Assembly (NCBI GenBank): GCA_021845925.1
Contig: JAJZUW010000008.1
Location: forward strand, 114,614 to 147,473
DNA: 32,860 bases
DNA from: Pseudomonadota bacterium
Lineage (GTDB): Bacteria; Pseudomonadota; Gammaproteobacteria; Burkholderiales; Sulfuriferulaceae
Direction of reading: 5' to 3'
Position numbers and translations under genes: made by a program. Shown here in pieces: positions 11,451 to 31,894 of the stretch. The notes beneath the pieces were generated by a model, which saw only the letters and a program-made list of their open reading frames with translations, searched no databases and was not told the origin of the DNA. Each line of letters starts with the position of its first letter. Positions within the stretch are counted from its first letter, which is position 1.

Positions 11451-12112
11451 CCATGACCGATACCCGCACACAAATACAGGATGCGCTTCAGTTCCGCCAT
11501 GCCTGCAAGGTATTTGATGCCGGCAGAAAAATCGACGATGGCGATTTTCACACCATTCTGGAAGCAGCCCGCCTGTCGCCCAGTTCATTTGGTTATGAAC
11601 CCTGGCGTTTTCTGGTGATCCAGAATACGGATCTGCGCCAGCAACTGCTACCAGTCACCTGGGGCGGACAACGACAGATCCCGAGCTGCAGTCATTTCGT
11701 GGCCATTCTGGCCCGCACCTCCGGTATGGAGCCGGGGGGCAGCCACACCTTGCACATGATGCGGGATATCCTGCAACTGCCGCCGGAGCGGATGGCCATG
11801 CGTGAGCCCACCTACCGGAAATTTCACCAGCAGGATTTTCATCTGGACACACCACGTCAGGTGTTTGACTGGTGCTGCCGACAGACTTATATCGCGCTGG
11901 CCGACATGATGCTGGCAGCTGCGATGCTCGGCATCGATTCCTGTCCGATTGAAGGGTTTGAAAGCGACGCAGCCAATCACGTTCTTGCTCAGGCCGGAGT
12001 GATGAATCCCGACGAGTGGGGGCTGTCGGTCATGGTTGCCTTCGGCTACCGCATCGAAGCACAGCCAGTGAAAAAACGCCAGCCAGCCACCAGCGTGATT
12101 CAATGGCTCTGA
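11447..12112 (+). CDS. Nitroreductase-family NAD(P)H-dependent FMN oxidoreductase
   Basis: 221 aa, with a typical nitroreductase-family N-terminus: [17 protein letters not shown] (FMN phosphate contact region), then [22 protein letters not shown], and a C-terminal [18 protein letters not shown] followed by [11 protein letters not shown]. These are the hallmarks of the NfsB/YdgI group, flavoproteins reducing nitro compounds, quinones or related substrates as homodimers. The physiological substrate cannot be deduced. The ATG overlaps the chemoreceptor stop (ATGA), an unusual translational coupling. The 3' end converges with clcA and overlaps it by 13 bp. Confidence 0.9.
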
Positions 12113-13434: not shown

Positions 13435-13488
13435 TGCATGATCCCGATATGTTTTTGGAATCCGCGCCGAGCATCATTCATGACCAGG

Positions 13489-14760
13489 TCATTCATGGTG
13501 TTCGATCGGATTACCATACAGAGGTTCTGCGCCAAAATGCGTGCTCACGGCATAAGCCACGGCGCAGGCGAGCATGACAGGGATGGTCAGATCAAACTGG
13601 CTGGTCATTTCAAGCACCATCACGATTGCCATCATTGGTGCGTGCGTCACGGCACTCAACACCGCCCCCATACAGATGACCGCCATCACGACCGGATCAC
13701 CCGTCAGGGTGCCAAACAGATAACCAATGGTTGCGCCGACAAACAGAGATGGCGTGAAAATACCGCCGATCGCACCCGAAGAAGTGCTGGCGATCGTCGC
13801 CAGCGCCTTGGCCAGCAGCACCACAGCCACCCAGCGCCAGGCCAGTCCGCCATGCAGCACCTGTGACACCACGCTGTAGCCGTTTCCCCAGACTTCCGGC
13901 ACAAACGCCGACAGAACGCCGACCACCAGACCGCCAGCGCCAAGTCGCATCCACAACGGCCCCACCACAGAAAAAACAGTCTTGCTCTTCTTGATGGCCG
14001 CCAGCAGTACCAGACCCAGCACCCCCGAAATGACGCCTGCCGCCAGCGCATCCAGCAAACCGAGCGGAGTCACTGGCAGAGGCGGCAGCACCGGCATCAC
14101 ATACAGCGGGCTTGGTTCCACCATCCAGAAAATCAGGGCACTGGCCATGGTCGCCGAGATCAGCACGGGAGCCACGGTATGACGGGCAAAAAAACCCAGC
14201 GCCAGTTCCAGCACGAATACCACACCGGCAACCGGTGCATGGTAGGCTGCCGCGATGCCTGCGGCAATACCGCATACCAGTACGGCATTGCGCTGATTGT
14301 CCGGCAACGGGAAAATGCCACCCAGCCAGGAGGCAAACCAGGCGGACAACTGCACCATCGGCCCTTCACGTCCGATTGCGGCGCCCGAACCCACCGAAAA
14401 CAAAGACGACAGCATGCGTATGGCATTACTGCGGTCATTCAACCGTGTCTGTCCCGAGCGAGCTGCTTCAATGTAATCGACGTGGGGTCCGGTAATCCAG
14501 CGTCCGCCCCACTGCAACACCGCGCCTGCCAGCACGCCACCACCCAGCGGCACCAGTATGCGCGCCCACATCGGCAATAACAGGGCATTGTGCACCAGAC
14601 TGCCGGTATGTCGCGTCAGCAGCCACTCCACGCCATCGATGAGCAGATGGAAAGAATCCATGGCCAGCGCACCCAGGATGCCAGCCAGAAAGGCTGCCAA
14701 CCAGAGTTTGGCGGTATTGGTGACGTTGTGTTTGACGGCCTGATTCATGATCGTTGTCAT
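13489..14760 (-). CDS. clcB: ClC-family anion channel/transporter, ClcB-like
   Basis: 423 aa ClC protein. GREGP is present with gating Glu132, and EVWGNGYSVV, GGIFTPSLFVGATIG and THAPMMAIVMVLEMT resemble E. coli ClcB. The first filter motif GSGIP is replaced by GPHVDYIEA, as in the ClcB clade (DYMEA in E. coli). The position of the internal proton glutamate is Leu186 (VLELAL versus IIEEMR in ClcA). It may therefore conduct anions without tight proton coupling; this is inference from alignment by eye. It is tandem with clcA; the upstream gap of about 100 bp separates it from the DUF1631 gene. Confidence 0.9.
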   Translation of the reverse strand: MTTIMNQAVKHNVTNTAKLWLAAFLAGILGALAMDSFHLLIDGVEWLLTRHTGSLVHNALLLPMWARILVPLGGGVLAGAVLQWGGRWITGPHVDYIEAARSGQTRLNDRSNAIRMLSSLFSVGSGAAIGREGPMVQLSAWFASWLGGIFPLPDNQRNAVLVCGIAAGIAAAYHAPVAGVVFVLELALGFFARHTVAPVLISATMASALIFWMVEPSPLYVMPVLPPLPVTPLGLLDALAAGVISGVLGLVLLAAIKKSKTVFSVVGPLWMRLGAGGLVVGVLSAFVPEVWGNGYSVVSQVLHGGLAWRWVAVVLLAKALATIASTSSGAIGGIFTPSLFVGATIGYLFGTLTGDPVVMAVICMGAVLSAVTHAPMMAIVMVLEMTSQFDLTIPVMLACAVAYAVSTHFGAEPLYGNPIEHHE

Positions 14761-17610: not shown

Positions 17611-17755
17611 GATGATGGAACGACCCTGCGGGTCGTCAAAAAACGATTGCATCAACCGATCGTTCGAAACAGGCGTCTGCTGCCAGAAACGCCGTCTGGC
17701 GGACTTCCGTCACCAACAGCAGGCATCATCAGCACGACCAGGCATGCCAGCTTCC

Positions 17756-17815: not shown

Positions 17816-18439
17816 TCATGTCCCTGACACCAGCCCTCCCTGCTGTTCGATAAATCCGACGATGGCTTCCAGCCCCTGTCCAGTTTTCAGATTGCTGAAC
17901 ACAAATGGACGGTCCATGCGCATGCGACGAGCATCCCGATCCATCACCTCGAGTGATGCACCCACCATGGGCGCCAGATCAATCTTGTTGATCACCAGCA
18001 GATCCGACCGGGTGATGCCTGGCCCCCCCTTGCGCGGAATCTTGTCGCCAGCAGCCACATCAATCACATACAGGGTCAGATCCGACAATTCCGGACTGAA
18101 CGTAGCGGACAGGTTATCACCACCGCTTTCCACAAAAACGATATCCAGGCCGGGAAACCTGGCAGTCAAGCGATCCACGGCTTCCAGATTCATCGAAGCA
18201 TCTTCCCGAATGGCGGTATGCGGACAACCTCCGGTTTCCACCCCGATGATCCGTTCCGGAACCAGCGCTTCATGACGGGTAAGGAATTCGGCATCCTCGC
18301 GCGTGTAGATGTCATTGGTGACGACCGCAATGTTGTATCTGTCGCGCAAGGCTAGGCACAAACCCAGGGTCAATGCTGTTTTGCCCGAACCAACAGGTCC
18401 ACCAATACCAACCCGCAAGGGTTCCATTGCAACAGTCAT
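17816..18439 (-). CDS. ureG: Urease accessory GTPase UreG
   Basis: 207 aa SIMIBI-class GTPase that drives nickel delivery to urease in the UreD-UreF-UreG complex. Visible are the P-loop GGPVGSGKT (residues 13-21), the Cys72-Pro73-His74 nickel-binding motif ([10 protein letters not shown]), [17 protein letters not shown], and the base-specificity motif NKID. The start is the ATG at 18439 with a GGAGG site; the longer frame upstream overlaps ureF and is spurious. It is the last gene of the urease operon, 19 bp after ureF. Confidence 0.97.
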
Positions 18440-18458
18440 GCCAGCCTCCATTCCCGAT

Positions 18459-19142
18459 TCACGATCTGAACAACCGGCTGTACTGGGTTTCATGCCAGCA
18501 GCCGGCCATACTGTACAAAGGTGACACACTGTTCAGCATGTCATCTGGCAGATCCATGGCATTTCGCACGATCTCCGGCAACGATTTGCCGCACTGCGCC
18601 AATAAAGTCTGCCCGGCCACCTGCCCGAGGGGCAAGGTCTTCATGACCACCGCCACCTGGTTTTCCAGCCATGACCACGCGTAGCCAAGCATCGAATCCG
18701 TTTCATCCAGCTGCCAGGCCGATGTCATCCAGGCCCAGGCGCACGGAAAGGCAACTTCGGTCTGTCCAGCCAGGATAGCCAGATCATCTGCACCAAAATC
18801 AGGCATTTCTCTGGCCAGCCGCAACAGCGAATACCCCATCTGCAAGGTTTCAGCGCGTCCTTCTGTCGTATCACGCGATGCCACAAATTGGCCATTCCAG
18901 TCCGCTAGGCTATCTGCATCGCCAGCATGACAAGCACGCATCATGCGTAGCAGAACCGGCAACTCATACTGCGCCAGCGGCAATTCCATCACGCTGTGTA
19001 TCCATTGTCCGATCTGTTGCACATCTGTGAGCATTTTTTCGTCAATCAGCCATTCCATGCCCTGTGAATAGGCGTATGCGCCCACTGGCAGCATCGGGCT
19101 GGCCATCTGCAGCAAACGCACCAGCCTCAGTGTCTCATTCAT
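18459..19142 (-). CDS. ureF: Urease accessory protein UreF
   Basis: 227 aa all-helical UreF, which bridges UreD and UreG and gates GTPase-coupled nickel transfer. Typical features are [22 protein letters not shown] near the N-terminus, the [22 protein letters not shown] region, and a C-terminal [18 protein letters not shown]. The start is the ATG at 19142, which overlaps the ureE 3' end by 8 bp and restores the usual family N-terminus. ureG follows after 19 bp. Confidence 0.95.
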
Positions 19143-19626
19143 GCTGCGCCTTGGCCCGCCGCGACAACACCAGGCGCTCATCGTCGGGCGCACCATGCCG
19201 GTGACCGCCGCCATACGCCCCGGCCTCGGGTTCAAACGGAGCCACCTCATCCGTCACCATGACACCAAGACCGGTCAACATGTCGCGCAACACGTGATCC
19301 TGCTCCAGACGCAGCCAGCCTTCGCCCACCTGCAAAGGAACATGGCGGTTGCCCAGATGATAGGCGGCCCGGGCCAGATCGACCGGACTGGCTGCGCGAA
19401 CGGTCATCACCGATTCATCTGCCGCCACCACCCCGATCACGCGCCCATCGGATGCGCGCAGGCAATCCCCACCCCGCAGGATGCTGCCACGCTCCAGCAG
19501 CAACAGCACATCTTCACCGGAAGCCAGACGGGTGCGCAAACGGCTGCGCTGGCGCTTTTCAAACGGCAGAACCAGCTGGTCCTCTCCGGAAGGAAGGCCG
19601 GCAAGTTTTTCGGTCAGGCTGATCAT
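19135..19626 (-). CDS. ureE: Urease accessory nickel metallochaperone UreE
   Basis: 163 aa from the ATG at 19626. The N-terminal peptide-binding domain (about 1-75) precedes the metal-binding domain with AAYHLGNRHVPLQV, where His95 corresponds to the conserved Ni-binding histidine, and EQDHVLRDML with His111. The C-terminal tail is only modestly His-rich (GGGHRHG and a terminal AQHE), unlike the long poly-His tail of Klebsiella UreE, so nickel storage capacity is probably small. The gene starts 7 bp after the ureC stop and overlaps ureF by 8 bp. Confidence 0.95.
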   Translation of the reverse strand: MISLTEKLAGLPSGEDQLVLPFEKRQRSRLRTRLASGEDVLLLLERGSILRGGDCLRASDGRVIGVVAADESVMTVRAASPVDLARAAYHLGNRHVPLQVGEGWLRLEQDHVLRDMLTGLGVMVTDEVAPFEPEAGAYGGGHRHGAPDDERLVLSRRAKAQHE

Positions 19627-19633
19627 GTGCGCC

Positions 19634-21337
19634 TCAAAACAAAAAATACCGCTGTGCCATGGGCAACTCGCTGGCCGGTTCGCACTGCAGCAGCTGTCCG
19701 TCGGCATGCACCATGTAGGTTTCCGGATCGACTGTGATATCAGGGCAATAATCATTCAACTGCATATGCCGTTTGCCCAGATGACGGGTGTTTTGCACCG
19801 CGACCAGCGGCTTGACCAGACCAAGGTCCGCCAGCGCCGGATTGTTTAACGCGGCTGCCGAAACAAAAGTGACCGATTGTCTCAGCGCTCTGCCATAGGC
19901 GCCAAACATGTGCCGGAAATGCACCGGTTGTGGTGTCGGAATCGAGGCATTGGGATCTCCCATCGCTGCGGCGGCAATCATGCCCCCCTTGAGGATCAGA
20001 CTGGGTTTGACACCAAAAAATGCCGGTTTCCACAACACCAGATCAGCCAGCTTGCCCGGCTCCACGCTGCCCACTTCATGCGCAATGCCATGCGCAATGG
20101 CCGGGTTGATGGTGTATTTGGCAATATAGCGCCTGATGCGCAGATTGTCGTGACGCGCAGGATCGCCATCCAGCGCACCCCGCTGAAGTTTCATCTTGTG
20201 CGCGGTCTGCCAGCAACGCATGATCACTTCGCCCACCCGTCCCATGGCCTGGGAATCACTCGACATCATGCTGAGTGCGCCCAGATCATGCAGAATGTCT
20301 TCTGCCGCAATGGTTTCACGCCGGATCCGGCTTTCCGCAAACGCCACATCTTCGGCAATGGCTGGGTCCAGATGGTGACACACCATGAGCATGTCCAGGT
20401 GCTCATCAATCGTGTTGACCGTATACGGGCGGGTCGGATTGGTGGATGAAGGCAGCACATTGGCAAGACCAGCCAGCCTGACAATGTCCGGCGCATGCCC
20501 TCCCCCGGCTCCTTCAGTATGATAAGTGTGTATCGTGCGTCCTTTCAGCGCAGCGGCGGTGGTTTCCACGAACCCGGCCTCATTAAGGGTATCGCTGTGA
20601 ATAGCCACCTGCACATCCATGGCATCTGCCACCGACAGGCAATTGTCGATGGCAGCGGGTGTTGTTCCCCAATCTTCGTGCAGCTTCAACCCGATGGCAC
20701 CGGCCTCGACCTGTTCGGTCAGTGGACCGGGAAGGGACGCGTTGCCCTTGCCGAGAAACCCCAGATTCATCGGAAATGCTTCGGCAGCTTCCAGCATGCG
20801 CAGAATGTGCCATGGCCCGGGGGTACAGGTGGTCGCAAAGGTGCCCGTGGCCGGGCCGGTTCCACCTCCCAGCATGGTGGTCACGCCAGACATCAAGGCT
20901 TCTTCGATCTGCTGCGGACAAATGAAATGAATATGCGAATCAATACCTCCGGCCGTGACGATCATGCCTTCGCCGGCGATCACTTCTGTCCCGGCGCCGA
21001 TCACAATGGTGACGCCAGGCTGGATATCCGGGTTGCCTGCCTTGCCAAGGGCTTGAATACGACCATTTTTAATGCCGATGTCCGTCTTGATGATACCTTG
21101 ATAATCCACCACCAGCGCATTGGTAATCACCGTGTCCGCCACGTCGGCGGACAACCGCTGGCTCTGACCCATGCCATCGCGAATCACCTTGCCGCCACCA
21201 AATTTCACTTCCTCACCGTAAATCGTGTCATCACGCTCCACTTCAGCGATCAATGCGGTATCTGCCAGACGCACCCGATCACCAACCGTGGGGCCAAACA
21301 TCTCGGCATAGGCTCTTTTATCCATGGAAACTGCCAT
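19634..21337 (-). CDS. ureC: Urease alpha subunit UreC
   Basis: 567 aa catalytic subunit, full length. Urease hydrolyses urea to ammonia and carbamate at a two-nickel centre. All ligands are present, each one residue beyond the Klebsiella numbering: His135 and His137 (SHIHF), carbamylated Lys218 (GLKLHEDWG), His247, His273 and Asp361 (SSDSQ). The catalytic flap carries Cys320 and His321 (VCHHLD). Nothing is degraded, so an active enzyme is predicted. The ATG at 21337 has GGAGAG 4 nt upstream. It lies 10 bp after ureB and 7 bp before ureE. Confidence 0.98.
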
Positions 21338-21347
21338 GATCTCTCCG

Positions 21348-21665
21348 TTACAAATGCCCCATTACCCGCCCTTGAAACCCATACACGATGCGGTCGCCGG
21401 CCAGTTCCACCAGTTCCACCTGCCGGTGCTGACCTGGCTCGAACCGGACTGCGGTCCCTGATGCAATGTTGAGCCGGAATCCGCGTGCAGCCTGCCGATC
21501 AAATTCCAGCGCATCATTGACTTCAAAAAAATGAAAATGCGATCCCACCTGCACCGGACGATCACCGGTATTGGCCACATTGACAATCACGGTCCGCCGC
21601 CCAACATTCAGACAGATGTCTCCGTCTGCCACCCACATTTCGCCTGGTATCATGCTGATCCTCAT
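21348..21665 (-). CDS. ureB: Urease beta subunit UreB
   Basis: 105 aa, the normal length for a separate bacterial beta subunit. Family motifs are [16 protein letters not shown] at the N-terminus, [23 protein letters not shown] in the centre, and [25 protein letters not shown]. The protein is structural, holding the (alpha-beta-gamma)3 urease trimer. The ATG at 21665 overlaps the ureA stop by ATGA, so the two subunits are translationally coupled. Confidence 0.97.
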
Positions 21666-21964
21666 ACCACTGGCTGGTGCACCGTCACCAGCTTGGTTCC
21701 ATCCGGAAATGTGGCTTCCACCTGAATTTCCAGAATCATCTCCGCCACGCCTTCCATCACGTCCTCACGGCCCAGCACCATTGCACCTTGGCTCATCAGT
21801 TCTGCCACACTGCACCCGTCACGCGCCCCTTCCATGATGGTGGCCGTAATCAGGGCCACTGCTTCGGGATAATTCAGTTTCAGCCCGCGAGCGCGTCGTC
21901 GTTCGGCCAGCAACGCTGCAGTAAAAATCAGCAACTTGTCTTTTTCCCTTGGTGTCAGTTCCAT
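21662..21964 (-). CDS. ureA: Urease gamma subunit UreA
   Basis: 100 aa, exactly the usual gamma-subunit length when started at the ATG at 21964 ([14 protein letters not shown]). The upstream in-frame extension overlaps ureD and is not family-like. Conserved [22 protein letters not shown] and [18 protein letters not shown] are visible. It begins 17 bp after ureD and overlaps ureB. Confidence 0.97.
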
Positions 21965-21981
21965 GGTTGTGTCCGCTTCAT

Positions 21982-22803
21982 TCAAGTATTCCAGATACGT
22001 GGGCGACAGTATTCCCGCTGCGCATACCATGGTCTGAGCAATCGCCTGATCTGGTCAAAACAGGCACGGGCCTCGCTGGCATGCCAACCCACATAACGGA
22101 TGATCAGCAATTCAGGCATTGCACTCAGCGCAGCTCTGGCTGGCGTAACCGCTCGCAATACCGCGCGACATTGTTCCAGCAGTGCTTCGGGCACCGGTCC
22201 AGCACAGATCACAAAGCTGCCATGCACCGGCATTCCGGCCAGTCCGGCCAGCGAATGCTGCAGACCACCTCCTGCCTGAAGCAGGATCTGGTCCAGGAAC
22301 AACCGTCGACCTCCACGCCAAAGCTCTGTCTTTCCCTGAACCCGCCCCTGATCGAACGTTTCTCCCGATGCCCTGCGCCCAAGACAAGCAATTTCCCAGC
22401 CAGCATAGTGCGCATCGCCATCCAGTTCGACGCGCAAGCCCGTCCGCGCATCACAATCCCGAAAATACTGGCTTTCCTGCGGCAGCCATTCCAGCATCGC
22501 ATCCGGCGCCAACCTGAAATGCATTTGCTGAGAAGCAGGTCTGCCATTGGCTTTGTACCATTTGCCGGAACCGGGGGTCGTCATCAGCACCTGCGCACCA
22601 GAACGGAGCTCGGCGCACAGATTCAGCGCATCCCCACCAGCGATTCCGCCAGGCGGATGCAGAATGATGGCATGGCATACCGCATCACCTTCCGGATAAA
22701 GCATTTTTTGCACCCGAAGCGGTCCTTCATGACTGTTGCAAACCAGTCTGGTGCTATCGTCGCGGCGATCAAACGCCAGCCACAACCTGGCATGCCAGCT
22801 CAC
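21982..22803 (-). CDS. ureD: Urease accessory protein UreD
   Basis: 273 aa from the GTG at 22803. UreD (UreH) is the scaffold that docks UreF-UreG on apo-urease and channels nickel. Visible are [15 protein letters not shown], the [12 protein letters not shown] segment and a C-terminal VRYVGWHA-type motif ([13 protein letters not shown]). An ATG at 22839 would give 285 aa, but the GTG has GGAGAG 6 nt upstream, overlaps the gntR stop in a GTGA arrangement and gives the family-like N-terminus [10 protein letters not shown]. The overlap ties urease translation to the regulator gene. Confidence 0.93.
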
Positions 22804-23531
22804 TTGCGCTCTCCGGGCTCGTTTGGGTTCACTAGCCAACCAGTTGCCGTTTGCCGTTCGCGTGCCTCATGCAAACGATGCAGGGTGATTTTTCTGACTT
22901 CGGCCTTGCTGGCATCAATATGTGATTTGAGAAGAATGGCAGCCTGTGCCTGTTTGCGCTGCAACAACATGCGCAATATTTCCGCATGCTCGGCATAAGT
23001 CGCCTGAATACGGTCGCTGCTAGTAAAATCCAGATGCCTGATGATGCGGATTTTTTCAGTCACCTCCTGATGCACCCGCGCCATTTCCCGATTGCCTGTT
23101 GCCTGAACGAGCCCCTGGTGAAAAGCTTCGTCCAGCGCAGCCACCTGGATCCCGTCGTCCAGCCGGTGTTCTGCCGGCACCAGCCAGATATCCGAAAAAA
23201 CGTCCAGGCTGATGGATTCGGGAGATTCACAAATCCGCTGTATGGCGGCCAGTTCAAGCACGATGCGCAAATCATACAACTGCTCAAAGCGTTGAAAATC
23301 AAACGGACAAACCGCCCAGCCACTCCGGAAAGAAACCTGCAGATAGCCTTCGCGCTCCAGTCGATACAAGGCATCGCGCAACGGCGTACGCGAAACACCA
23401 TGAACTTCGGCCATACCGCTTTCGGTAAACCGGTCTCCGGGCAGCAGCCGGAATGAATAGATATCTTCCTTGAGCAACGCATACAATCTGGTTGCCAACG
23501 CATTTTCCTTGCGGGCAGAAGATCCGGTCAT
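22800..23531 (-). CDS. GntR-family transcriptional regulator (FadR/VanR type, FCD domain)
   Basis: 243 aa. The N-terminal winged helix (about 10-75; RLLPGDRFTESGMAEVHGVSRTPLRDALYRLEREGYL) is classic GntR. The C-terminal all-helical FCD ligand domain (about 85-225) carries the Asp/His metal- or ligand-binding pattern (LDEAFHQGL, later AEHAEIL and KSHIDASK). It sits inside the operon with 4-bp overlaps on both sides (atzH-like upstream, ureD downstream), so it is made with the genes it presumably controls. The two TTGCATrCAA palindromes before atzF are the natural candidate operators. The ligand is unknown; a urea oligomer or allophanate would be logical. Confidence 0.92.
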   Translation of the reverse strand: MTGSSARKENALATRLYALLKEDIYSFRLLPGDRFTESGMAEVHGVSRTPLRDALYRLEREGYLQVSFRSGWAVCPFDFQRFEQLYDLRIVLELAAIQRICESPESISLDVFSDIWLVPAEHRLDDGIQVAALDEAFHQGLVQATGNREMARVHQEVTEKIRIIRHLDFTSSDRIQATYAEHAEILRMLLQRKQAQAAILLKSHIDASKAEVRKITLHRLHEARERQTATGWLVNPNEPGERK

Positions 23532-23923
23532 ACCACCTGTGTCTCCAGCATGCTGACATGCGCGGACACCACCCGCCAGCCTTGTGGAAACCTTACCCAG
23601 ACCTGGCTTTGCCGGCCCACCGGCTCGTTGTCGCGCAAAAACTCGACATCGGCTGTTGCAAACGCATCCCCAAACGTTTTGATTACCAGATTGCGTAGAC
23701 TACGCGCGAGCGAAAACGATGGCAGCCAGTTTTCACGCCATCGGTAAATCGCTTCCGCCCCGTACTGAATCTCAGCAATGCCAAAACGCACTGTCAGCTG
23801 GTTGTTCCAGAACAGATGGTTCAACGTATCGGTATCATTGCCCAGAAATGCCCGTTCATATTGCCAGAATACGGCAGTCACCGCTGACAGCACCTCCGGC
23901 TGGTTGATTGCGACATCATTCAT
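23528..23923 (-). CDS. AtzH-like protein (DUF3225, NTF2-like fold)
   Basis: 131 aa. It matches the small NTF2/SnoaL-like family that includes AtzH of the Pseudomonas sp. ADP cyanuric-acid operon: EVLSAVTAVFWQYERAFLGN, the TLNHLFWNNQLTVRFG core and C-terminal GRQSQVWVRFPQGWRVVSAHVS. In strain ADP the gene lies beside atzF; here it lies beside the probable triuret hydrolase. Its function is not settled; a role on an unstable carboxylated intermediate would be inference. It has a GGAG site, starts 2 bp after the upstream gene and overlaps gntR by 4 bp. Confidence 0.85.
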   Translation of the reverse strand: MNDVAINQPEVLSAVTAVFWQYERAFLGNDTDTLNHLFWNNQLTVRFGIAEIQYGAEAIYRWRENWLPSFSLARSLRNLVIKTFGDAFATADVEFLRDNEPVGRQSQVWVRFPQGWRVVSAHVSMLETQVV

Positions 23924-23925
23924 GC

Positions 23926-24591
23926 TTATTCTCCAAATGCTTCGCGCACGGCAGCCAGAGGCGCAGTCCAGCCAACAATGCCCCCCTGCGCCCGGATCAT
24001 GGCCAGTGTCGCCAGTTTGAATTCCTCAAAATAACTGGCCGTGGCATCCTCGACCAGCAGACACTCATAACCACGGTCATTGGCTTCGCGCATGGTTGTC
24101 TGCACACAGACTTCTGTGGTAACACCAGCCAGCAGCAACGAGCGAATATTGTGCCAACGCAACATCTCTGTCAGCGCAGTGGCATAAAAAGCTCCCTTGC
24201 CGGGCTTGTCGATGACCATCTCGCCCGGTCTCGGCGCAACCTGCGGAATAATATCCGCACCAGGCTCACCACATACCAGAATACGCCCCATAGGCCCATC
24301 GTCACCGATATGCAACAACGGATCGCCACGCAGCCGTTTGGTGGATGGGCAATCTGCCAGGTCCGGCCGGTGACATTCCCTGGTATGAATCACTGTGAGA
24401 CCTGCCTGACGTGCTATCTGCAGCAGTTCCGCTACCACTGGCACAGCAGATTGCAGAAGTGAAACATCGTTGCCCAGACTCGCCCCGAATCCTCCGGGCT
24501 CAATGAAATCCCGCTGCATGTCAATCACAAGCAATGCGGTCGTGGCCGGATCAAACTGCCAGTCAAACGGTAAAGCCTTTATTCTGTGCAT
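23926..24591 (-). CDS. trtA: Isochorismatase-like cysteine hydrolase, probable triuret hydrolase
   Basis: 221 aa from the ATG at 24591 (GGAGAG upstream); the ATG at 24603, directly after the ATPase stop, would give 225 aa. The catalytic triad is complete: with 225-aa numbering Asp28 (VIDMQRDF), Lys133 (IDKPGKGAF) and Cys166 (TTEVCVQTT). It is a paralogue of BiuH encoded 1.6 kb upstream but differs in substrate-facing stretches: [17 protein letters not shown] instead of [16 protein letters not shown], and [13 protein letters not shown] instead of [13 protein letters not shown]. Characterised TrtA enzymes hydrolyse triuret and are encoded next to biuH, so this assignment follows family plus context. 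Alternatives are a second biuret-like or guanylurea-type amidohydrolase. Confidence 0.7.
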
Positions 24592-24603
24592 GCCACTCTC
24601 CAT

Positions 24604-26196
24604 TCATGCGTGACCACCAGCCATGTGATGCCCAATTGCAACCGGATCCGCATCCGCTGTCGCAACGGCATGCACAATGCGACCGGCAGACATCACCACC
24701 AGTCGATCCGTCAATGCCAGCAATTCATCGAGATCTTCGCTAACCAGCAAAATGGCAGCCCCGGCTTCGCGCGCCATCTGCAATCGTTGATGGATCGCAG
24801 CCGCAGCCGCAAAATCAAGCCCGAAAACAGGGTTTGCCACAATCAGCAGATTCACTGGCTGGCCAAGTTCGCGTGCCAGAACGGCTCGTTGCACATTGCC
24901 ACCGGACAGCCCATCAATCGGCAACATGGGATCAGGCGGACGAACACCAAATTCGGCGATCAGTGAGCGACTGCGGGCAACCATCCGTCTGCGACTCAAG
25001 AACCAGCCTGTTTTCCAGCCTGCAGTGACAGGAACCTGGTCAAAGTTTCGCAATGCCATGTTCTCCGCTACGGTCATGCTGGACACACATGCATTGCGCA
25101 AAGGTTCTTCCGGCAGACTGTATACGCCATGCAGACGCATTTCGTGACGTGTTGCCCGATAGGGCAAACCATCCACCAGAATCTCTCCTGCGCTGGCATC
25201 GCGCTGACCGAGCAAAATTTCAACCAACTCTTTCTGGCCATTGCCAGAGACGCCCGCCACGCCAATCATTTCTCCGGAACGCACCACCAGATCCAAATCG
25301 GTGACAGCCGGCACACCACGGTCATTGCTGCCATGCAGGCCGCGTATGATCAACCGCTCGGCAGCCAGATTCATGCTCTGCGCTTTGGCAGGGATTGTGC
25401 GTTCAGGTCCGGTTTGCACTGGTCTGTTTTCAGGGTTGCCCATCATCATGCTGGCCATTTCATCGGTTCCAGTTTCCGGCAGGCGGCCAGTGCCGGCCAA
25501 TCGCCCCCGGCGCAACACAGTCACGGCATCGGCGTAAGCGGTGACTTCGCGGAATTTGTGCGTAATCATCAACACCGTCAGTTTTCGCTGCCGGGTCAAC
25601 TGGTGCAGCATGCCGAGCACTTCATCCGCTTCGGCAGGCGTCAGCACAGACGTTGGCTCATCTAGAATCAGCAGACGTCGCTTTTGGTACAGCTGTTTCA
25701 GGATTTCCAGCTTCTGCTTTTCGCCAGCCGAAAGATCAGCTACCCTGGCTGACAAATCCAGTCGGAATGACATGTCTGCCATGAACGACTGCAACGCCTG
25801 ATGTTCCCTGGCCAGATTAAGCAACCACGGCAGGTCATCACGTGCCAGCATCAGGTTTTCTGCCACCGTCATGCCGGATGCAACCGTGAAATGCTGGTAA
25901 ACCATGCCAATGCCCAGCTTGTGCGCATCCCGTGGACTACGGATATCCTGCTCGCGCCCGGCCAGCAAGAAACTGCCGCCGTCCTGCCGATAGAAACCAG
26001 CCAGACATTTCACCAGCGTACTCTTGCCAGCCCCGTTCTCGCCAAGCAGGCAATGAAAACTGGCAGCATCAACCTGCAGGCTGACCTGGTCCAGGGCATG
26101 AATGTCACCAAACCGCTTGCTGATTTCGATGGCCTGAATTGACAATGGGCCATCAGGCATCAACGAAGCAGCATGATCCGGCAGACGGCCGTCCAT
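24604..26196 (-). CDS. ABC transporter ATPase, two nucleotide-binding domains (BMP/nucleoside-type importer)
   Basis: 530 aa from the ATG at 26196 (GGAG upstream, 4 bp after the biuH stop). It carries two ABC domains, as in RbsA-like ATPases. Domain 1 has Walker A GENGAGKST (residues 52-60), signature LSAGEKQKLE and Walker B LLILDEPTSVL. Domain 2 has a degenerate Walker A (GVSGNGQKEL), signature LSGGNVQRAVLAREL and Walker B LLIVANPVFGLD, the asymmetric arrangement usual for this subfamily. It would energise the two permeases encoded upstream. The ATPase gene is split from the permeases by biuH, which ties transporter and hydrolase into one unit. Confidence 0.93.
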   Translation of the reverse strand: MDGRLPDHAASLMPDGPLSIQAIEISKRFGDIHALDQVSLQVDAASFHCLLGENGAGKSTLVKCLAGFYRQDGGSFLLAGREQDIRSPRDAHKLGIGMVYQHFTVASGMTVAENLMLARDDLPWLLNLAREHQALQSFMADMSFRLDLSARVADLSAGEKQKLEILKQLYQKRRLLILDEPTSVLTPAEADEVLGMLHQLTRQRKLTVLMITHKFREVTAYADAVTVLRRGRLAGTGRLPETGTDEMASMMMGNPENRPVQTGPERTIPAKAQSMNLAAERLIIRGLHGSNDRGVPAVTDLDLVVRSGEMIGVAGVSGNGQKELVEILLGQRDASAGEILVDGLPYRATRHEMRLHGVYSLPEEPLRNACVSSMTVAENMALRNFDQVPVTAGWKTGWFLSRRRMVARSRSLIAEFGVRPPDPMLPIDGLSGGNVQRAVLARELGQPVNLLIVANPVFGLDFAAAAAIHQRLQMAREAGAAILLVSEDLDELLALTDRLVVMSAGRIVHAVATADADPVAIGHHMAGGHA

Positions 26197-26200
26197 TGGC

Positions 26201-26884
26201 TTACTCCAACGCTGCCAGCAACCGTGCCGCATTCGCCACGGCACCAAATACACCGCCTTGCATGGTCACCATTTTCACCGCTGCCCGATGATTGCCAGGA
26301 TCGGTTGCCCCGCAACAATCTTCCAGCAACAGGCATTCATAGCCCATGTCATTGGCCACGCGCATTGTGGTGTGAACACACACATCAGTGGTAATGCCCG
26401 TCAATATGAGATTTTTGATCTGTCGGTTGCGCAAAACCAGGTCCAGATCAGTGGCATAAAATGAACCTTTTCCTGGCTTGTCAATCACGACTTCGCCGGG
26501 TAGAGGTTGCAATTCCGGGATGATTTCCCAGCCAGCCTCTCCCCTGACCAGAACCCGACCACACGGCCCCGGGTCACCGATGCCAGCGCCAATTCTTTGC
26601 GAACGCCAACGCTTGTTTGCCGGAAGGTCGGACAAATCCGGCCGATGACCCTCACGGGTATGAATGATCATAAAGCCCATCTGGCGCATGATTTCCAGGA
26701 CCTTGCGAATCGGCTCCACTGGCGCACGCGTCAGACTCAGGTCATAGCCCATCTGGTCGACGTAACCACCAAACCCGCAAAAATCGGTTTGCATGTCAAT
26801 AATCAGCAGTGCGGTATCGGCAGAGGACCAGGTTCCATTCCATGGCCAGGGATAAGGATTGGCATCCACATAACGTTCCGGCAT
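26201..26884 (-). CDS. biuH: Biuret amidohydrolase BiuH (isochorismatase-like cysteine hydrolase)
   Basis: 227 aa from the ATG at 26884 (AGGA upstream; a GTG lies one codon earlier). It hydrolyses biuret to allophanate and ammonia. The catalytic Asp30 (IIDMQTDF), Lys136 ([10 protein letters not shown]) and Cys169 (TTDVCVHTT) sit at the same mutual spacing as Asp36, Lys142 and Cys175 of Rhizobium leguminosarum BiuH. The substrate-region stretches DMGYDLSL-like, [33 protein letters not shown] and [13 protein letters not shown] are those I associate with true biuret hydrolases. It lies between permease and ATPase genes. The product is passed to AtzF, encoded by the first gene of the operon. Confidence 0.9.
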
Positions 26885-26897
26885 CACAGCATTCCTT

Positions 26898-27827
26898 TCA
26901 GGAGCGGTTGGTCAGCGACAGCTCGCCCGGAGACCCGGCAAGGGTCTGGCCAGGCCGCCAGCTGAGTGTCATCAATATCAGGGTCAGCACATAGGGTGCG
27001 GCATTGAACAGGTAATATCCCTGGGTCAACCCCTGCGATTGCAGGGCCGGCCCAAGTGCACCAGCGGCGCCAAACAACAATGCTGCCAGCGCGCAACGCA
27101 CAGGATCCCAGCGTGCAAATATGACCAGTGCAACCGCCATCAGCCCCTGTCCACTGGATAGCCCTTCATTCCAGCCACCCGGATAGTACAGGGACAAAAA
27201 TGCGCCTCCGATCCCGGCAAGAAATCCACCGGCAACCGTCGCCAGAATACGCAAACGGACCACGTGATACCCCAGCGCCCTGGCAGCCGCCGCATTGTCA
27301 CCGACCAGACGAAGCACCAATCCCAAACGCGTACGCTTGAATGCCAGGCGCAGCAGAGCTGCCAGGCCAAGGCCTAGTGGCAGCAGAGCATTCACCCGCA
27401 GTGCATCCCTGACTTGCGGATCATGGCTCCAGCTGCCCAGATGCCAGGATGGCAACATGGCCGCTTCCGGCTGGATCAGCGGTTTGCCGATGAAAAACGA
27501 AATTCCGGTACCAAACAGCATCATGGCAATGCCAACCGCAATGTCATTCACTTTCGGCAATGAACACAACAAACCATGAATCAGCCCCAGCAGCATGCCG
27601 CTGACGCCAGCGGCCAGTACACCAAGCCAGGGCGAACCGGTCAGCCAGGAAACGCCATATCCGCTCATGGCGCCAAACACCAGTGTTCCTTCCAGCCCCA
27701 GATTGATACGTCCTGATATTTCGGTGATGCATTCTCCCAGACTGACAAACAGAAAAGGCGTACTGACCCGCATGATGCCCCCCAGCAACGCGAGCAACAG
27801 ACTGCCCAACGCGACTCCGTCATGCAT
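26898..27827 (-). CDS. ABC transporter permease (BPD_transp_2 type), second subunit
   Basis: 309 aa from the ATG at 27827, which has a strong GGGGAGG site and overlaps the first permease gene by 8 bp. It is a multi-pass protein with the conserved [21 protein letters not shown] near residues 38-58, a [18 protein letters not shown] segment, and [27 protein letters not shown], the typical coupling and core region of nucleoside-type permeases that pair with BMP-family binding proteins. It forms a heterodimer with the upstream permease. The location predicts uptake of a urea oligomer rather than a nucleoside. Confidence 0.9.
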
Positions 27828-28854
27828 GCCGGCCTCCCCTGCGATTGAGCGTTTCAAATGCCAGCAAACTGACAAACAACAATCCCTGCAGCACCTGGGC
27901 CGCCGCATCCGGCAAATCCAGATGTCGCTGCAACAGACTATTGGACGCACCAAGTCCCCCGATCAGGATTGCCCCAGCGATGACGCCAAGCGGGTGATGC
28001 CTGGCCGCAAACGAGACCAGAATGCCCTGATAACCGTAACCAGCCATCAGGTCCGCGTTGGCACAGCCTTGCACGGCAGCAACTTCGAACATGCCGGCAA
28101 GTCCGGCAAAACCACCGCCAAGTACACTGGCAGCAAGCATCAGCCGTCCGACCGGCAAACCAGTCATTTTTGCAGCACGCGGATTGCCGCCAACAATGTC
28201 AATGGCAAACCCGAATACGGTATGGCGCAACAGCCACCACGCTGCCAGACAAGCCAGCACTCCCCACGCCAGCCCCCAGTGCACTTCCATACCAGGGATG
28301 TTGCCAATCATGTCGCGCGAATCGAGTGGTGCTGTCGATGGTTTGTTCAGGCTGGCCGGATCGCGCAGCCAGCCTTCGACCAGGAAATTGAACACCGCCT
28401 GACCGATATACGCTAGCAACAGACTGGAGATGGTTTCATTGACACCGCGCCGGTAGCGTAGCCAGCCCGAGATCCCGATCCACAGGCCCCCTGTCACCCA
28501 GGCCGCCAGTGCCATCCCGGCCAGCACCATAACCACTGGCCGGGATGCCCACCATACACCCACCATGGCAGCCGCCAGCCCACCCAATGCCAGCGCTCCT
28601 TCACCACCAATGATAACCATACCTGCTCGTGCCGGCACAGCAACGCACAGTGCGGTAAACATGATCGGCGCTGCACGGGACAGAGTGTTCTGCCAGGCAA
28701 ACCCGGAGCCGAAAGCACCCTTTCCCACCAGCATCAGGGCTTCGACTGCTGGGTAGCCGCTGGCCGCCACAAACAATGCAAATGCGCCAGCAGTTACCAC
28801 GATCGCTGCCACGATTGGTCGCAAGGAATCCAGTGCCTGTCGATACATGTTCAT
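27820..28854 (-). CDS. ABC transporter permease (BPD_transp_2 type), first subunit
   Basis: 344 aa, about eight to ten hydrophobic segments. It has MVIIGGEGALALGGLAAAMVGVW (the GGEG signature of this permease subgroup), RRGVNETISSLLLAYIGQAVFNFLVEGWLRDP and GGNPRAAKMTGLPVGRLML, all usual in the YufP-like partner of nucleoside-type importers. It begins 12 bp after the BMP protein stop; the Shine-Dalgarno is weak (GGGCAG), and MYRQAL two codons later is an alternative start. The overlap with the second permease supports a heteromeric membrane pore. Confidence 0.9.
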   Translation of the reverse strand: MNMYRQALDSLRPIVAAIVVTAGAFALFVAASGYPAVEALMLVGKGAFGSGFAWQNTLSRAAPIMFTALCVAVPARAGMVIIGGEGALALGGLAAAMVGVWWASRPVVMVLAGMALAAWVTGGLWIGISGWLRYRRGVNETISSLLLAYIGQAVFNFLVEGWLRDPASLNKPSTAPLDSRDMIGNIPGMEVHWGLAWGVLACLAAWWLLRHTVFGFAIDIVGGNPRAAKMTGLPVGRLMLAASVLGGGFAGLAGMFEVAAVQGCANADLMAGYGYQGILVSFAARHHPLGVIAGAILIGGLGASNSLLQRHLDLPDAAAQVLQGLLFVSLLAFETLNRRGGRHA

Positions 28855-28866
28855 CTGTCTGCCCGA

Positions 28867-29997
28867 TCAGACATGACCAATCACGCCATCGACCAGATAA
28901 TTCATGCTTTCCAGTACTTCATCCCGCTGTGCCTGAACCACACCGGCCGGAATCACTGTCTTGCCAGAATTGTCCAGCAATGGCCCTTTGAAGATGACAA
29001 AGTCTCCTGCCATCATGCGGGCTTTGACAGCCAGCGAATGCTGTTTTGCCTTGGCCGAAACAGCCGGGCCAAATGGAGATGTCCTGACAAACCCTTCTTT
29101 GAGTCCGCCGCGCAGGAAATTGATCATCGGCTTGCCAGCCATGGCATTGTTCACCAGGATGGTGTAAGGCGTTTCCCAGTTCCATTCGGCACCGGTCAAA
29201 TAACCTTTCGGTGCCAGCACCGCCTGATTGACGTGATATCCGCAGCAATAGATTCCCCGTCGCTCGGCTGTTTCGATCACTACCTTCGGGCTGTCCACAT
29301 GACAGGTCAACACATCCACGCCCTGGTCGACCAGACTATTGGATGCTTCGGCTTCCTTGACCGGCAACGACCAGTCACCCGTAAAAATCACGCTCACGGT
29401 GCATGCCGGATTGACTGAACGCGCGCCCAGCAAGAAGGCATTGATATTACGAAGCACCTGTGGAATCGGCTTTGCAGCCACAAAACCAAGTTTTTTACTC
29501 TTGCTGGCGTAAGCAGCAGCCATTCCGTTCAAATACACGCATTCATCAATATAACCGAAGAAACTGCCAGCATTTTTCGGCATGCCAGGTTTCCACAAAC
29601 CGCCGCAATGGGAAAAATCAACCGATGGATATTCCTGGGCAACTTTCAGGACATAGGGACTGAAATAACCGAAAGACGTGGCAAACACCATGCCGGCCCC
29701 ATCTTCGTTCACCATGGCTTCCATGGTTTTCTGCACGGCGATGGTTTCCGGAACCCGTTCTTCTTCGACCACCCGGACGCCTGGTAATTTGCGCAACGCG
29801 GCTGCTGCTTCGGCCTGCGACTGGTTATAGCCAAAATCATCCTTGGCACCGACATAAATCGCGCCAACCACCAATTTTGAGGCTGCCATTGCTTGACGGA
29901 CTCCATCAGGAATGAACTGCGAAACTGCACCCGCCCCAAGAGCCGCCATCATTCGTAACCAGTTGCGACGACTTGCCGAATATTTCATTTCTTTCAT
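28867..29997 (-). CDS. BMP-family ABC transporter substrate-binding protein
   Basis: 376 aa from the ATG at 29997, with AGGAGA 7 nt upstream. The N-terminal 40 residues form a signal peptide with a twin-arginine-like SRRNWLRMMAAL, a hydrophobic stretch and an alanine-type cleavage site (MAASK); no lipobox Cys, so a soluble periplasmic protein, possibly Tat-exported. The mature domain matches the BMP/PnrA family: VGAIYVGAKDDFGYNQSQAEA, VFATSFGYFSPYVLKVAQEYPSVDF, GYIDECVYLNGMAAAY and a hinge LGFVAAKP. Characterised members often bind nucleosides; the operon here suggests triuret, biuret or a related ureide. That specificity is inference. Confidence 0.9.
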   Translation of the reverse strand: MKEMKYSASRRNWLRMMAALGAGAVSQFIPDGVRQAMAASKLVVGAIYVGAKDDFGYNQSQAEAAAALRKLPGVRVVEEERVPETIAVQKTMEAMVNEDGAGMVFATSFGYFSPYVLKVAQEYPSVDFSHCGGLWKPGMPKNAGSFFGYIDECVYLNGMAAAYASKSKKLGFVAAKPIPQVLRNINAFLLGARSVNPACTVSVIFTGDWSLPVKEAEASNSLVDQGVDVLTCHVDSPKVVIETAERRGIYCCGYHVNQAVLAPKGYLTGAEWNWETPYTILVNNAMAGKPMINFLRGGLKEGFVRTSPFGPAVSAKAKQHSLAVKARMMAGDFVIFKGPLLDNSGKTVIPAGVVQAQRDEVLESMNYLVDGVIGHV

Positions 29998-30037
29998 CAC
30001 TATTCTCCTGTTGATTCAAAATGATTCTGCTTACCGC

Positions 30038-31843
30038 TTATACCAGCGATGCGTTGTATGCCCGCCAGCCACCGCTTGCGGTGATATCTTCCGCACACAT
30101 GACAGCTGCTGATTCACATAAAAACCCACAAACCTGTTCGCCATCATCCAGATGCAATTTGCCGATTCCGAGCGGGGCCGGTATTTCCATGACAAATTCC
30201 CCAAACAGCCTTACCGGCATTTCCCATATTTCAACACTGATTCGGCTGCCACCTTCTGGAACCCGCACCAGCCCTGGCTTCGTATCGGTCAACTTGAACA
30301 GCCGATACATCGGAGCGGTATGTCGCGTCGACACATACAGTGCGCAACGTTGAGTCAACTGCTTATTCAGGGGAAATCCTGATAAATGAGCACCTGCCAC
30401 CGCAACTTGAACCATCGGCTCGAATGCAGGCAGGGGTTTCAACGCTTGTCGCGATCTGGGAGGAATGGAGCGACCGGTTCCCAGCCGCAAATGAATCACC
30501 GGTTCTGCCTGTCGTGCCAGTTCGGCCAACCGCTGGTCAGCGCCAGCCAGCCCGATCCAGGTTACACCAGCCGGCAAACCGTCCTGACGAAACAGACCTG
30601 GCATGGACAAAGCGCACATCCCCAACAAGTTGACGAAGTTGGTAAACCGGCCCAAGCGTGCGTTCAACGCCAATGGCTCCGCTGCAACCTCTGCCAACGT
30701 TGGAAACAGTGGGGCCGTCGGTAACAACAGCGCATCAACGTCATCAAACCTGTGCCAGCATCTGTCGGCCAAGTCCGCCAGTTCATATTCAGCTGCGAAC
30801 ACATCCATTGCTGAATACCGACCGGCCGTTCTCATGACTGAGGCAACAGCAGGATCCATTGCCTCGGGAAATCCTGCCATCCACGCCCCAAAAGCCAATT
30901 GACGCTCGGCCAGCCACGGACCGTCATACAACAGGTCAGCTACCTGATAAAAATCCGTCAAGTCTGTTATGACCGGATCGATCAGACCTGCATGTTCCAA
31001 CGCACTGACCGAAGCCACATAAGCTTCCCATGCCATGTCATCCATACTGGCGTCCTGTTCAGCCAGCACCCCGACCCTGACTGGAACGGACACCGGGCCA
31101 AGCGGGTAAATCCGTGACCATGGGTGGCTCGGATCGACCATCATCTGCTGCAATACCAGCCACGCATCTGCCACTGTATGTGCGAACACCGAGATGCAAT
31201 CCAGACTCTTGCAGGCTGGAAAAACGCCATCCGTGCCAATCAGGCCTGGCGTTGGCTTTAGCCCAACCAGATTACACATACCTGCGGGTACCCGACCGGA
31301 ACCGGCGGTATCAGTCCCCAACGCAAATGCAACAAGACCGGAGGCGCAGGCAACAGCCGAACCAGAACTGGAACCACCCGGGATTCTGTGTCTGGCAAAT
31401 GGATTGGCCGGCGTGCCCATGGGTGAGCGCGTACCCACCAAGCCAGTAGCAAACTGGTCCATATTGGTCTTTCCTACCAGAATGGCACCAGCTGCCAGCA
31501 ACTGATCAACAACACGAGCCGAATCTGACGGCACCAATTGCATGGCCGGACAAGCGGCTGTGGTAGGCAAATCCGCTACGTCTATATTGTCCTTGACAGC
31601 AAACGGCACACCCAGCAAAGGATATCGACGAAATGCTGCTTCTGGATCAGTTTGCAACGCTCGCAATAACGCCGTTGCGCGCTCCATCAGATGTTTTTTT
31701 GGAATGAATGACAACCAGACTCGGCTGTCACCCGATTCCATCCGATTTGTGATACCCAACATCACTTGAACTGGATCTAGTTGTTGAGTGCGATACGCGT
31801 CCAGCAGTCCACTGATAGTTGGAAATTCCGGCAGATCAAACAT
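30038..31843 (-). CDS. atzF: Allophanate hydrolase AtzF
   Basis: 601 aa, close to the 605 aa of Pseudomonas sp. ADP AtzF. It hydrolyses allophanate to ammonia and CO2, the last step of biuret breakdown. The amidase-signature domain (about 1-440) has the Ser-cisSer-Lys triad at Lys84 (AVKDNID), Ser158 (PGGSSSGSA) and Ser182 (TDTAGSGR), with the same spacing as Lys91, Ser165 and Ser189 of AtzF. The C-terminal ~150 residues (VAVAGAHLSGFPLNKQL onward) form the extra AtzF/DUR2 domain, which separates it from ordinary amidases. The start at 31843 has AGAG upstream; a longer in-frame start at 31876 would begin upstream of the predicted transcription start. First gene of the operon. Confidence 0.93.
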   Translation of the reverse strand: MFDLPEFPTISGLLDAYRTQQLDPVQVMLGITNRMESGDSRVWLSFIPKKHLMERATALLRALQTDPEAAFRRYPLLGVPFAVKDNIDVADLPTTAACPAMQLVPSDSARVVDQLLAAGAILVGKTNMDQFATGLVGTRSPMGTPANPFARHRIPGGSSSGSAVACASGLVAFALGTDTAGSGRVPAGMCNLVGLKPTPGLIGTDGVFPACKSLDCISVFAHTVADAWLVLQQMMVDPSHPWSRIYPLGPVSVPVRVGVLAEQDASMDDMAWEAYVASVSALEHAGLIDPVITDLTDFYQVADLLYDGPWLAERQLAFGAWMAGFPEAMDPAVASVMRTAGRYSAMDVFAAEYELADLADRCWHRFDDVDALLLPTAPLFPTLAEVAAEPLALNARLGRFTNFVNLLGMCALSMPGLFRQDGLPAGVTWIGLAGADQRLAELARQAEPVIHLRLGTGRSIPPRSRQALKPLPAFEPMVQVAVAGAHLSGFPLNKQLTQRCALYVSTRHTAPMYRLFKLTDTKPGLVRVPEGGSRISVEIWEMPVRLFGEFVMEIPAPLGIGKLHLDDGEQVCGFLCESAAVMCAEDITASGGWRAYNASLV

Positions 31844-31854
31844 TGTTTCGTCTC

Positions 31855-31876
31855 TTGCATGCAATCTTGCATACAA
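31855..31876 (-). promoter_or_regulatory. Tandem GntR-type operators at the atzF transcription start
   Basis: Two palindromic 10-mers lie 12 bp centre to centre: TTGCATGCAA (31855-31864, perfect) and TTGCATACAA (31867-31876, one mismatch), each preceded or followed by C/G to extend the CTTG...CAAG pattern. FadR/VanR-type GntR proteins commonly bind TTGTATACAA-like sequences. The sites cover roughly -8 to +13 relative to the predicted sigma-54 start, a position suited to repression by the GntR protein encoded in this operon. Binding is inferred. Confidence 0.6.
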
Positions 31877-31878
31877 GA

Positions 31879-31894
31879 AGCAATCAACGTGCCA
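31879..31894 (-). promoter_or_regulatory. Sigma-54 promoter upstream of atzF
   Basis: The minus strand reads TGGCACGTTGATTGCT, matching the sigma-54 consensus TGGCACG-N4-TTGCW, with the invariant GG (-24) and GC (-12) correctly spaced. Transcription would start near 31868, giving a leader of about 25 nt before the atzF ATG. Sigma-54 control fits nitrogen-scavenging genes, normally activated by NtrC under nitrogen limitation. Confidence 0.75.

Follow-up and report, generated by a model that had tools for sequence, protein, structure and literature searches.

A complete urease gene cluster stands directly behind a set of genes for the degradation of triuret and biuret in a stretch of DNA from a member of the Sulfuriferulaceae, and this locus raises the question of why the two lie together and whether they are read as one. 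The stretch (hereafter the window) comprises 32,860 nucleotides and closes the right-hand side of a contig of 147,473 bases (JAJZUW010000008.1 of assembly GCA_021845925.1). Sixteen minus-strand genes, extending from the ATG of atzF at 31843 to the stop codon of ureG at 17816 without internal stops, follow one another in the order atzF-bmp-perm-perm-biuH-abc-trtA-atzH-gntR-ureDABCEFG. This is a real, tightly packed run in which a common nitrogen-scavenging operon is continued by a urease extension. An initial annotation, made from the letters of the DNA alone, had described sixteen genes of one orientation in close packing, and the coordinates, the junctions and the reading frames free of stops bear this description out.

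We propose that a nine-gene triuret/biuret operon, encoding an AtzT-like importer, TrtA, AtzH, BiuH, AtzF and a GntR regulator, has gained the urease cluster directly behind gntR, and that the whole run is most likely read under nitrogen shortage from a sigma-54 promoter before atzF, with activation of the NtrC type and, at the start site, probably a GntR-type repressor that brings in control by substrate. Triuret would be converted by way of carboxybiuret, biuret and allophanate to ammonia and CO2, and urease would act beside this chain, on urea from a separate Urt uptake system and on urea leaked by the spontaneous decarboxylation of allophanate or dicarboxyurea. An extended operon of this kind, with one sigma-54-dependent nitrogen-starvation transcript, GntR control and a side-branch urease, is in our estimate moderately probable. 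A further-reaching version, in which the urease on this starvation transcript was recruited against urea leaked from unstable allophanate and carboxylated ureas, so that little triuret or biuret nitrogen would be lost as dead-end urea, and sigma-54 control is ancestral to the importer cassette across Proteobacteria, is conceivable and we advance it only tentatively. The likelihoods that we attach to rival explanations below overlap and are not meant to add up to one. If the proposal is correct, a single starvation signal would govern the use of slow-release nitrogen compounds (biuret and triuret) together with that of urea, and there would be a reason for the presence of urease beside an operon whose own chemistry needs none.

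Gene junctions in the sixteen-gene unit

With the start codons chosen here, neighbouring genes overlap by at most 8 bp or are separated by at most 17 bp, the sole exception being atzF and bmp (37 or 40 bp); the starts of bmp, biuH, abc, ureD and ureG were picked among near alternative codons. In the cassette half, the bmp-perm1 spacing is 12 bp, perm1 and perm2 overlap by 8 bp, biuH follows perm2 after 10 or 13 bp and abc follows biuH after 4 bp (ATG at 26196) or 40 bp (ATG at 26160), trtA begins without a gap behind abc, atzH lies 2 bp behind trtA, and atzH and gntR overlap by 4 bp. In the urease half, the spacings are 17 bp (ureD-ureA), 10 bp (ureB-ureC), 7 bp (ureC-ureE) and 7 bp (ureF-ureG, with ATG at 18451), and the overlaps are 4 bp (ureA/ureB) and 8 bp (ureE/ureF).

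The junction between the halves bears on the possibility of two neighbouring operons, in which the cassette would end at gntR, the ure genes would have a promoter of their own inside gntR, and the fusion would be positional. A sigma-70-like match (9/12) is present within gntR at 23298-23271, and such matches in the region, counted on both strands, exceed those in shuffled sequences (14 versus 7.5, standard deviation 2.3), which weighs against a single promoter and means that an internal ure promoter is possible. Against this stands the 4-bp overlap of gntR and ureD, given the chosen GTG start of ureD at 22803, by which coupled translation of the two genes is favoured. Moreover, none of the 11 terminator-like hairpins in our scan lies between genes of the unit (10 are intragenic and one follows ureG; the mean for shuffled sequences is 14.7). 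Taking into account two further points given below, we consider two separate operons unlikely, if well worth keeping in mind.

That the junction could be an artefact of assembly or binning, fusing unrelated loci, has to be considered for a sequence that is known from a single assembly and whose junction turned up in no second genome. The joint, however, is a gene overlap of 4 bp inside a 147-kb contig, and the 2.34-Mb assembly consists of 15 contigs and is rated 99.94% complete with a contamination of 0. The content of G and C, overall and at third codon positions, is also broadly alike in the two halves of the unit and mostly below that of the other genes measured in the window. We judge such an artefact to be extremely improbable.

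Candidate sigma-54 promoter and proposed nitrogen control

The initial annotation had placed the unit under one control. This idea can now be given a candidate promoter before atzF, and the single control itself is something that we infer. The view upstream of atzF is limited to ~1 kb because the window stops at the end of the contig. Within it lies TGGCACGTTGATTGCT (31879..31894, minus strand), a GG(-24)/GC(-12) match to all 12 positions scored of what we take to be the sigma-54 consensus, whose end is 35 bp from the ATG of atzF. It is the sole exact match to this pattern in the window, where 0.11 would be expected and where 10 of 100 shuffles contained at least one. With one mismatch allowed, four matches are found and 3.09 expected, so that only the perfect site counts by itself.

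The site recurs in independent sequence from other genomes. We compared the best 80 of at least 587 BiuH relatives (the named loci), 12 of which were excluded from this test as having no match to bmp. Of the remaining 68 loci, 47 carry, in the 150 bp that precede bmp, a site with at least 10 of 12 positions, and 30 carry one with at least 11; when 14 loci of the Bradyrhizobium type are set aside, the former count is 34 of 54. The same search before other genes of the cassette gave 0/69 (perm1), 1/70 (perm2), 3/79 (biuH), 0/71 (abc) and 6/80 (trtA, which probably begins its own unit in some of these loci). Stretches further upstream of bmp gave 1/67 and 0/67, the opposite strand 0/68, and mononucleotide shuffles a mean of 0.22 with a maximum of 2. 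Three relatives from the genus of the window's host (G012, G013 and G014) carry sites of 10, 10 and 11 of 12 positions at 128, 114 and 352 bp before bmp. The host genome encodes both RpoN (222.3 bits) and NtrC (697.4 bits versus 558.6). Palindromes of the NtrC type with at least 10 of 12 positions are found upstream in 9 of 67 relatives and in none of 67 stretches inside bmp, a coding control that differs in composition; at 9 of 12 or better, the counts are 31 and 12. The urease of Burkholderia cenocepacia is described as NtrC-dependent (PMC5491218).

Several observations weigh against this interpretation. The two nearest relatives in the genus (G006 and G015) have a site of only 9 of 12 positions, 155 bp before bmp, and the site before atzF in a Zoogloea strain with the same gene order likewise reaches just 9 of 12. 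In 21 of the 68 named loci, the stretch before bmp contains nothing that scores 10 of 12 or better, and the best NtrC palindrome of the window is weak (8/12). An ntrC mutant of B. cenocepacia, a bacterium that may not carry the cassette, is reported to have grown better on biuret, not worse (PMC5491218). Even so, a perfect site in the window and its recurrence before bmp beyond all controls together support one nitrogen-starvation promoter, and we regard a sigma-54 promoter as a well-supported hypothesis for the unit from sequence comparison. A search of open-access literature, in which most subscription journals are missing, brought up no report of a biuret cassette under sigma-54 control. 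The recurring site would offer a direct rule, open to testing, for the conditions under which degraders of biuret turn on.

Close behind the -12 box, where transcription would be expected to begin, are two palindromes of the form TTGYATRCAA (31867-31876 and 31855-31864, minus strand), which we presume to resemble operators of the GntR family and which are candidate sites for a GntR-type repressor. An exact search finds only these two in the window, with 0.25 expected and two or more in 4 of 100 shuffles, for a motif that was picked after the site in the window had been viewed. Of the 68 named loci, 19 (13 of them of the Bradyrhizobium type) contain exact copies in the 300 bp that precede bmp, and no copy lies in the 150-bp stretches before five internal genes of the named loci. 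Against this assignment, exact copies precede bmp in 1 of 18 loci with a close GntR gene as against 19 of 57 without one. Several of the 18, among them the window, have atzF in front of bmp, which puts the promoter in another place. As the palindromes do not track a close GntR gene, GntR is no more than a candidate for the protein that binds them.

Predicted enzymes, importer and regulator

The enzymes named in the initial annotation are supported by family models and by the residues that separate BiuH from TrtA. All genes described here and in the next section are on the minus strand, and curated NCBIfam cut-offs are passed by AtzF, BiuH, AtzH (as HpxZ), UreA, UreB, UreC, UreE and UreG. The predicted allophanate hydrolase AtzF (30038..31843; TIGR02713, 666.3 bits versus a cut-off of 511.05) combines an amidase domain (PF01425) with a C-terminal AH_C domain (PF21986) and matches PDB 4gyr at 1.2e-140. 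BiuH (26201..26884; NF050097, 414.9 bits versus 370) matches the biuret hydrolase of Rhizobium leguminosarum (PDB 6azo, 3.3e-119), and TrtA (23926..24603) matches the triuret hydrolase of Herbaspirillum (PDB 6xix, 4.2e-95) and reaches 266 of the 370 bits needed for the BiuH model. The residues that set TrtA apart from BiuH are named in PMC7948467. By eye, BiuH keeps all those of its type that surround the key Gln, relative to 6azo (Tyr at the position of TrtA F35, and Tyr53, Asp173 and Val218 in the numbering of BiuH from strain 3841), and TrtA keeps F35, N41, E160, Q202, I205 and the catalytic triad relative to 6xix. The two cysteine hydrolases are thus split cleanly into predicted BiuH and TrtA types. 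The product of atzH (23528..23923; PF11533, 1.4e-43), a gene called trtB in PMC12625717, is a candidate carboxybiuret or dicarboxyurea decarboxylase; it matches AtzH of known structure (PDB 6bjt, 5.3e-32) and keeps, by eye, the equivalents of the AtzH residues Tyr22 and Arg46 (PMC6219798). NCBIfam labels the family HpxZ (147.7 bits versus a cut-off of 135), so that the substrate is putative.

The transport genes form, as first described, a complete ABC (ATP-binding cassette) importer, for which a triuret or biuret substrate is putative. They comprise the periplasmic binding protein gene bmp (28867..29997, with a GTG at 30000 as a possible start; PF02608), the permease genes perm1 (27820..28854; PF02653, 6e-33) and perm2 (26898..27827; PF02653, 3.1e-34), and abc (24604..26196), which encodes an ATPase with two PF00005 stretches. 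The nearest solved relative of Bmp is the atrazine periplasmic binding protein AtzT (PDB 6pi5, 1.5e-53), for which guanine and 2-hydroxyatrazine are recorded as ligands (PMC6834077); the relationship is one of sequence, and the ligand of the window's protein is putative. Its type appears to be AtzT/nucleoside-like, and the label 'B6' transporter was dropped, as the scores with those models fell far under their cut-offs. The regulator gene gntR (22800..23531; PF00392 and PF07729) specifies an FCD-type protein whose counterparts at the same position of the locus are 69-70% identical in G015 and G006 and 68% identical in Zoogloea.

Urease beside the pathway

The urease genes form a complete set, with the structural genes ureABC, the accessory genes ureD, E, F and G, and intact active-site motifs. 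They are ureD (21982..22803; PF01774, 1.8e-53), ureA for the gamma subunit (21662..21964; TIGR00193, 168.2 bits versus 82.3), ureB for the beta subunit (21348..21665; TIGR00192, 156.9 versus 90.3), ureC for the alpha subunit (19634..21337; TIGR01792, 963.4 versus 680; PDB 8hcn, 9.1e-270), ureE (19135..19626; NF009751, 190.1 versus 144; PF02814 and PF05194), ureF (18459..19142; PF01730, 3.5e-37) and ureG (17816..18451; TIGR00101, 345.3 versus 204.2). UreD and UreF have no NCBIfam match and are recognised by Pfam alone. The motifs of UreC that we take to be those of metal binding and catalysis are kept relative to 8hcn, as judged by eye. A match to the Rfam family 5_ureB_sRNA (20899-21184, plus strand, antisense to ureC, 87.9 bits) was set aside as evidence for an RNA and most likely reflects conserved coding sequence, since all eight other ureC-bearing loci tested match as well.

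The initial annotation had written of the urea-oligomer series from triuret to urea as available nitrogen under one control. As a single chain this does not hold, in that urease stands outside the chain from triuret to allophanate and urea arises only by spontaneous decarboxylation. In the published chemistry, TrtA converts triuret to carboxybiuret, biuret forms from this by loss of CO2, BiuH converts biuret to allophanate, and AtzF converts allophanate to ammonia and CO2 (PMC7948467, PMC12625717, PMC6219798). As allophanate is the direct substrate of AtzF (PMC6219798), urease was rejected as the final step of the pathway, and it would instead constitute a parallel or salvage branch because AtzF takes allophanate straight to ammonia and CO2. 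Urea can form through solvent-mediated decarboxylation of the intermediates and is a dead end where there is no urea hydrolase (PMC6219798). The sources of biuret and triuret themselves are urea fertiliser and, probably, the breakdown of purines (PMC7948467). Urea uptake in the host probably relies on a homologue of UrtA, a likely urea-binding protein encoded on another contig (490.7 bits, just below the cut-off of 492.75). On the final step of the pathway, a published title that begins 'Allophanate hydrolase, not urease...' reportedly makes the same point.

A different purpose for the unit might be the defence of cytoplasmic pH by release of ammonia and not the supply of nitrogen. Two adjacent ClcB-like chloride channel/antiporter genes (12100-14760, minus strand) lie in tandem in the window, and a role of urease in pH has been proposed for acidophiles (PMC4886054, PMC4725956). 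The paired ClcB genes had also prompted the thought of Ferrovum or another acidophile as the host, which found no confirmation and was dropped. The sigma-54 promoter, in contrast, indicates nitrogen control, and we think pH defence very improbable as the main function.

Distribution and published relatives of the unit

The first nine genes correspond, in our sequence comparisons, to a widespread, standard biuret/triuret cassette. Their order, atzF-bmp-perm1-perm2-biuH-abc-trtA-atzH-gntR, is repeated in Zoogloea sp. LCSB751 with identities of 55-81%, but the 20.7 kb around that cassette, unlike the window, contain no match to urease. In the genus of the host, G006 is collinear with the window from bmp to gntR (identities of 59-84%), in G015 these genes are divided between two contigs, and neither has a UreC match, with the G015 assembly being only 77% complete. 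That cassettes of nine genes (Zoogloea) and of eight genes (G006, G015) occur without urease behind gntR is one of the further points in favour of two neighbouring operons. In G012, G013 and G014, the run bmp-perm1-perm2-biuH-abc-trtA leads on to a weak match of the AtzF-like (amidase) kind and to atzH. G011, G014 and G012 each have a further BiuH-like gene, 44-51% identical to BiuH of the window and 4-7 kb from an AtzF-like gene; in G011 it is split into two matches.

Among the 18 genomes of the genus, UreC is found in four (that of the window, G011, G013 and G014), and in the latter three, distances of 20, 31 and 40 kb separate it from the nearest BiuH-family match of its contig. As to an ammonia-oxidising host, no match to ammonia monooxygenase was found in any of the 18, in a search that also gave none in any control genome. 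For a broader sample we took genomes with a BiuH-family match at E<=1e-60 from the order (56 of 399), the phylum (45 of 398) and the class (14 of 369), samples that partly overlap, and added G011 (with a match of only 1.7e-43), G015 and G016, which gave 109 distinct genomes. UreC scored above its cut-off in 88 of these (45 of 59 and 43 of 50), matches under ~30 bits not being taken as UreC. Only in the window's genome do UreC and a BiuH-family gene lie within 10 kb of each other, proximity being judged by eye and fragmented assemblies being able to conceal linkage; there, UreC is 2.6 kb from TrtA and 4.9 kb from BiuH. The next-nearest distances are 15 kb (G091), 18 kb (G461), 20 kb (G011) and 24 kb (G065), the match that lies near in G091, G011 and G065 being a BiuH-like gene of lower score. 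G461 has a urease cluster in loose linkage with a biuret cassette and with matches to ABC transporters, all within ~25 kb. The rarity that the initial annotation had attributed to the direct fusion is thus upheld in this sample (1 of 88 genomes).

Urease is adjacent to biuH in one of the 80 named loci; 54 of these have 9.9 kb or more of sequence to either side of biuH, and absence of urease counts for less in the rest. This locus, from the metagenome-assembled genome Nevskia sp. D1_Bin_28, has urease beside biuH-atzH-gntR-trtA as in the window; unlike in the window, its ureDABCEF genes are divergent from biuH, and the importer and atzF are unmatched in 20.7 kb. The neighbourhood search recovered the nine-gene order in Zoogloea, and a second case of the gntR-ureD junction was encountered nowhere among the genomes and loci compared.

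We regard the unit as a rare arrangement of known parts. The operon described for Herbaspirillum sp. BH-1 and R. leguminosarum 3841 (PMC7948467) contains the same trtA, biuH and atzF with the specificity residues kept, and the word urease is absent from the main text of that report. On plasmid pRL10 of strain 3841, bmp, perm1, perm2, biuH, abc and trtA are ordered as in the window, but matches to atzF, gntR and ure are absent from the stretch compared, whereas in the window atzF leads and gntR and ureDABCEFG trail on the same strand. A contig from a metagenome-assembled genome of an ammonia oxidiser (Nitrosomonadaceae GCA-2721545) is described as carrying atzF, biuH, trtA, trtB and bmpA-nupABC with ureABCDEFG 'nearby' (PMC12625717). 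It shares with the window a complete triuret pathway, the type of importer and a complete urease, and co-location of pathway and urease is therefore already in print. Linkage as such is to that extent known, and what looks rare is the abutting fusion: the passages on that contig call its urease 'nearby' and give neither spacing nor strand, and the genes of the window abut. The abutting same-strand arrangement of cassette and urease may be new.

The collinearity could also be neutral, a chance rearrangement having placed the urease where it is and the order having no function, which would be compatible with two operons. The arrangement is rare among the genomes sampled, and the segment at the unit's other end, between atzF and the end of the contig (32079-32860), holds an IS66 TnpA-like open reading frame (68.8 bits, below the cut-off of 74) and two direct repeats of 155 nucleotides (94%). 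The association recurs, on the other hand, in the ammonia-oxidiser contig (PMC12625717), in the Nevskia genome and, loosely, in G461, and we consider a neutral origin distinctly unlikely.

Origin of the urease half and sequences downstream

A tree built from 22 UreC proteins places that of the window with G063, which belongs to another family within the order (identity 87%, support 100/99), and the proteins of G011, G013 and G014, from the window's own genus, form a separate group that is 80-81% identical to it. That the closest relative differs from the ureases of the genus is the second further point in favour of two operons. Since UreC groups outside its own genus, separate acquisition of the urease would fit, although transfer is not proven by one gene tree with 22 rows. 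In translated searches (tblastn) of plasmid records, relatives of UreC turned up on 164 (the best, from Hydrogenophilus thermoluteolus, at 80.3%) and BiuH relatives on 201, of which 133 are from Rhizobium. Both are common plasmid cargo, and no plasmid origin is suggested because none of these relatives is closer than those in the genomes.

Downstream of ureG, a weak terminator-like hairpin with a run of T (17644..17658, minus strand) was picked up by the scan described above, in which such hairpins are not enriched over shuffles. The next gene, which lies on the same strand and is separated from ureG by over 150 bp, specifies a 930-residue DUF1631 (PacR-like) protein, with its start at 17652 or 17610 and its stop at 14860.

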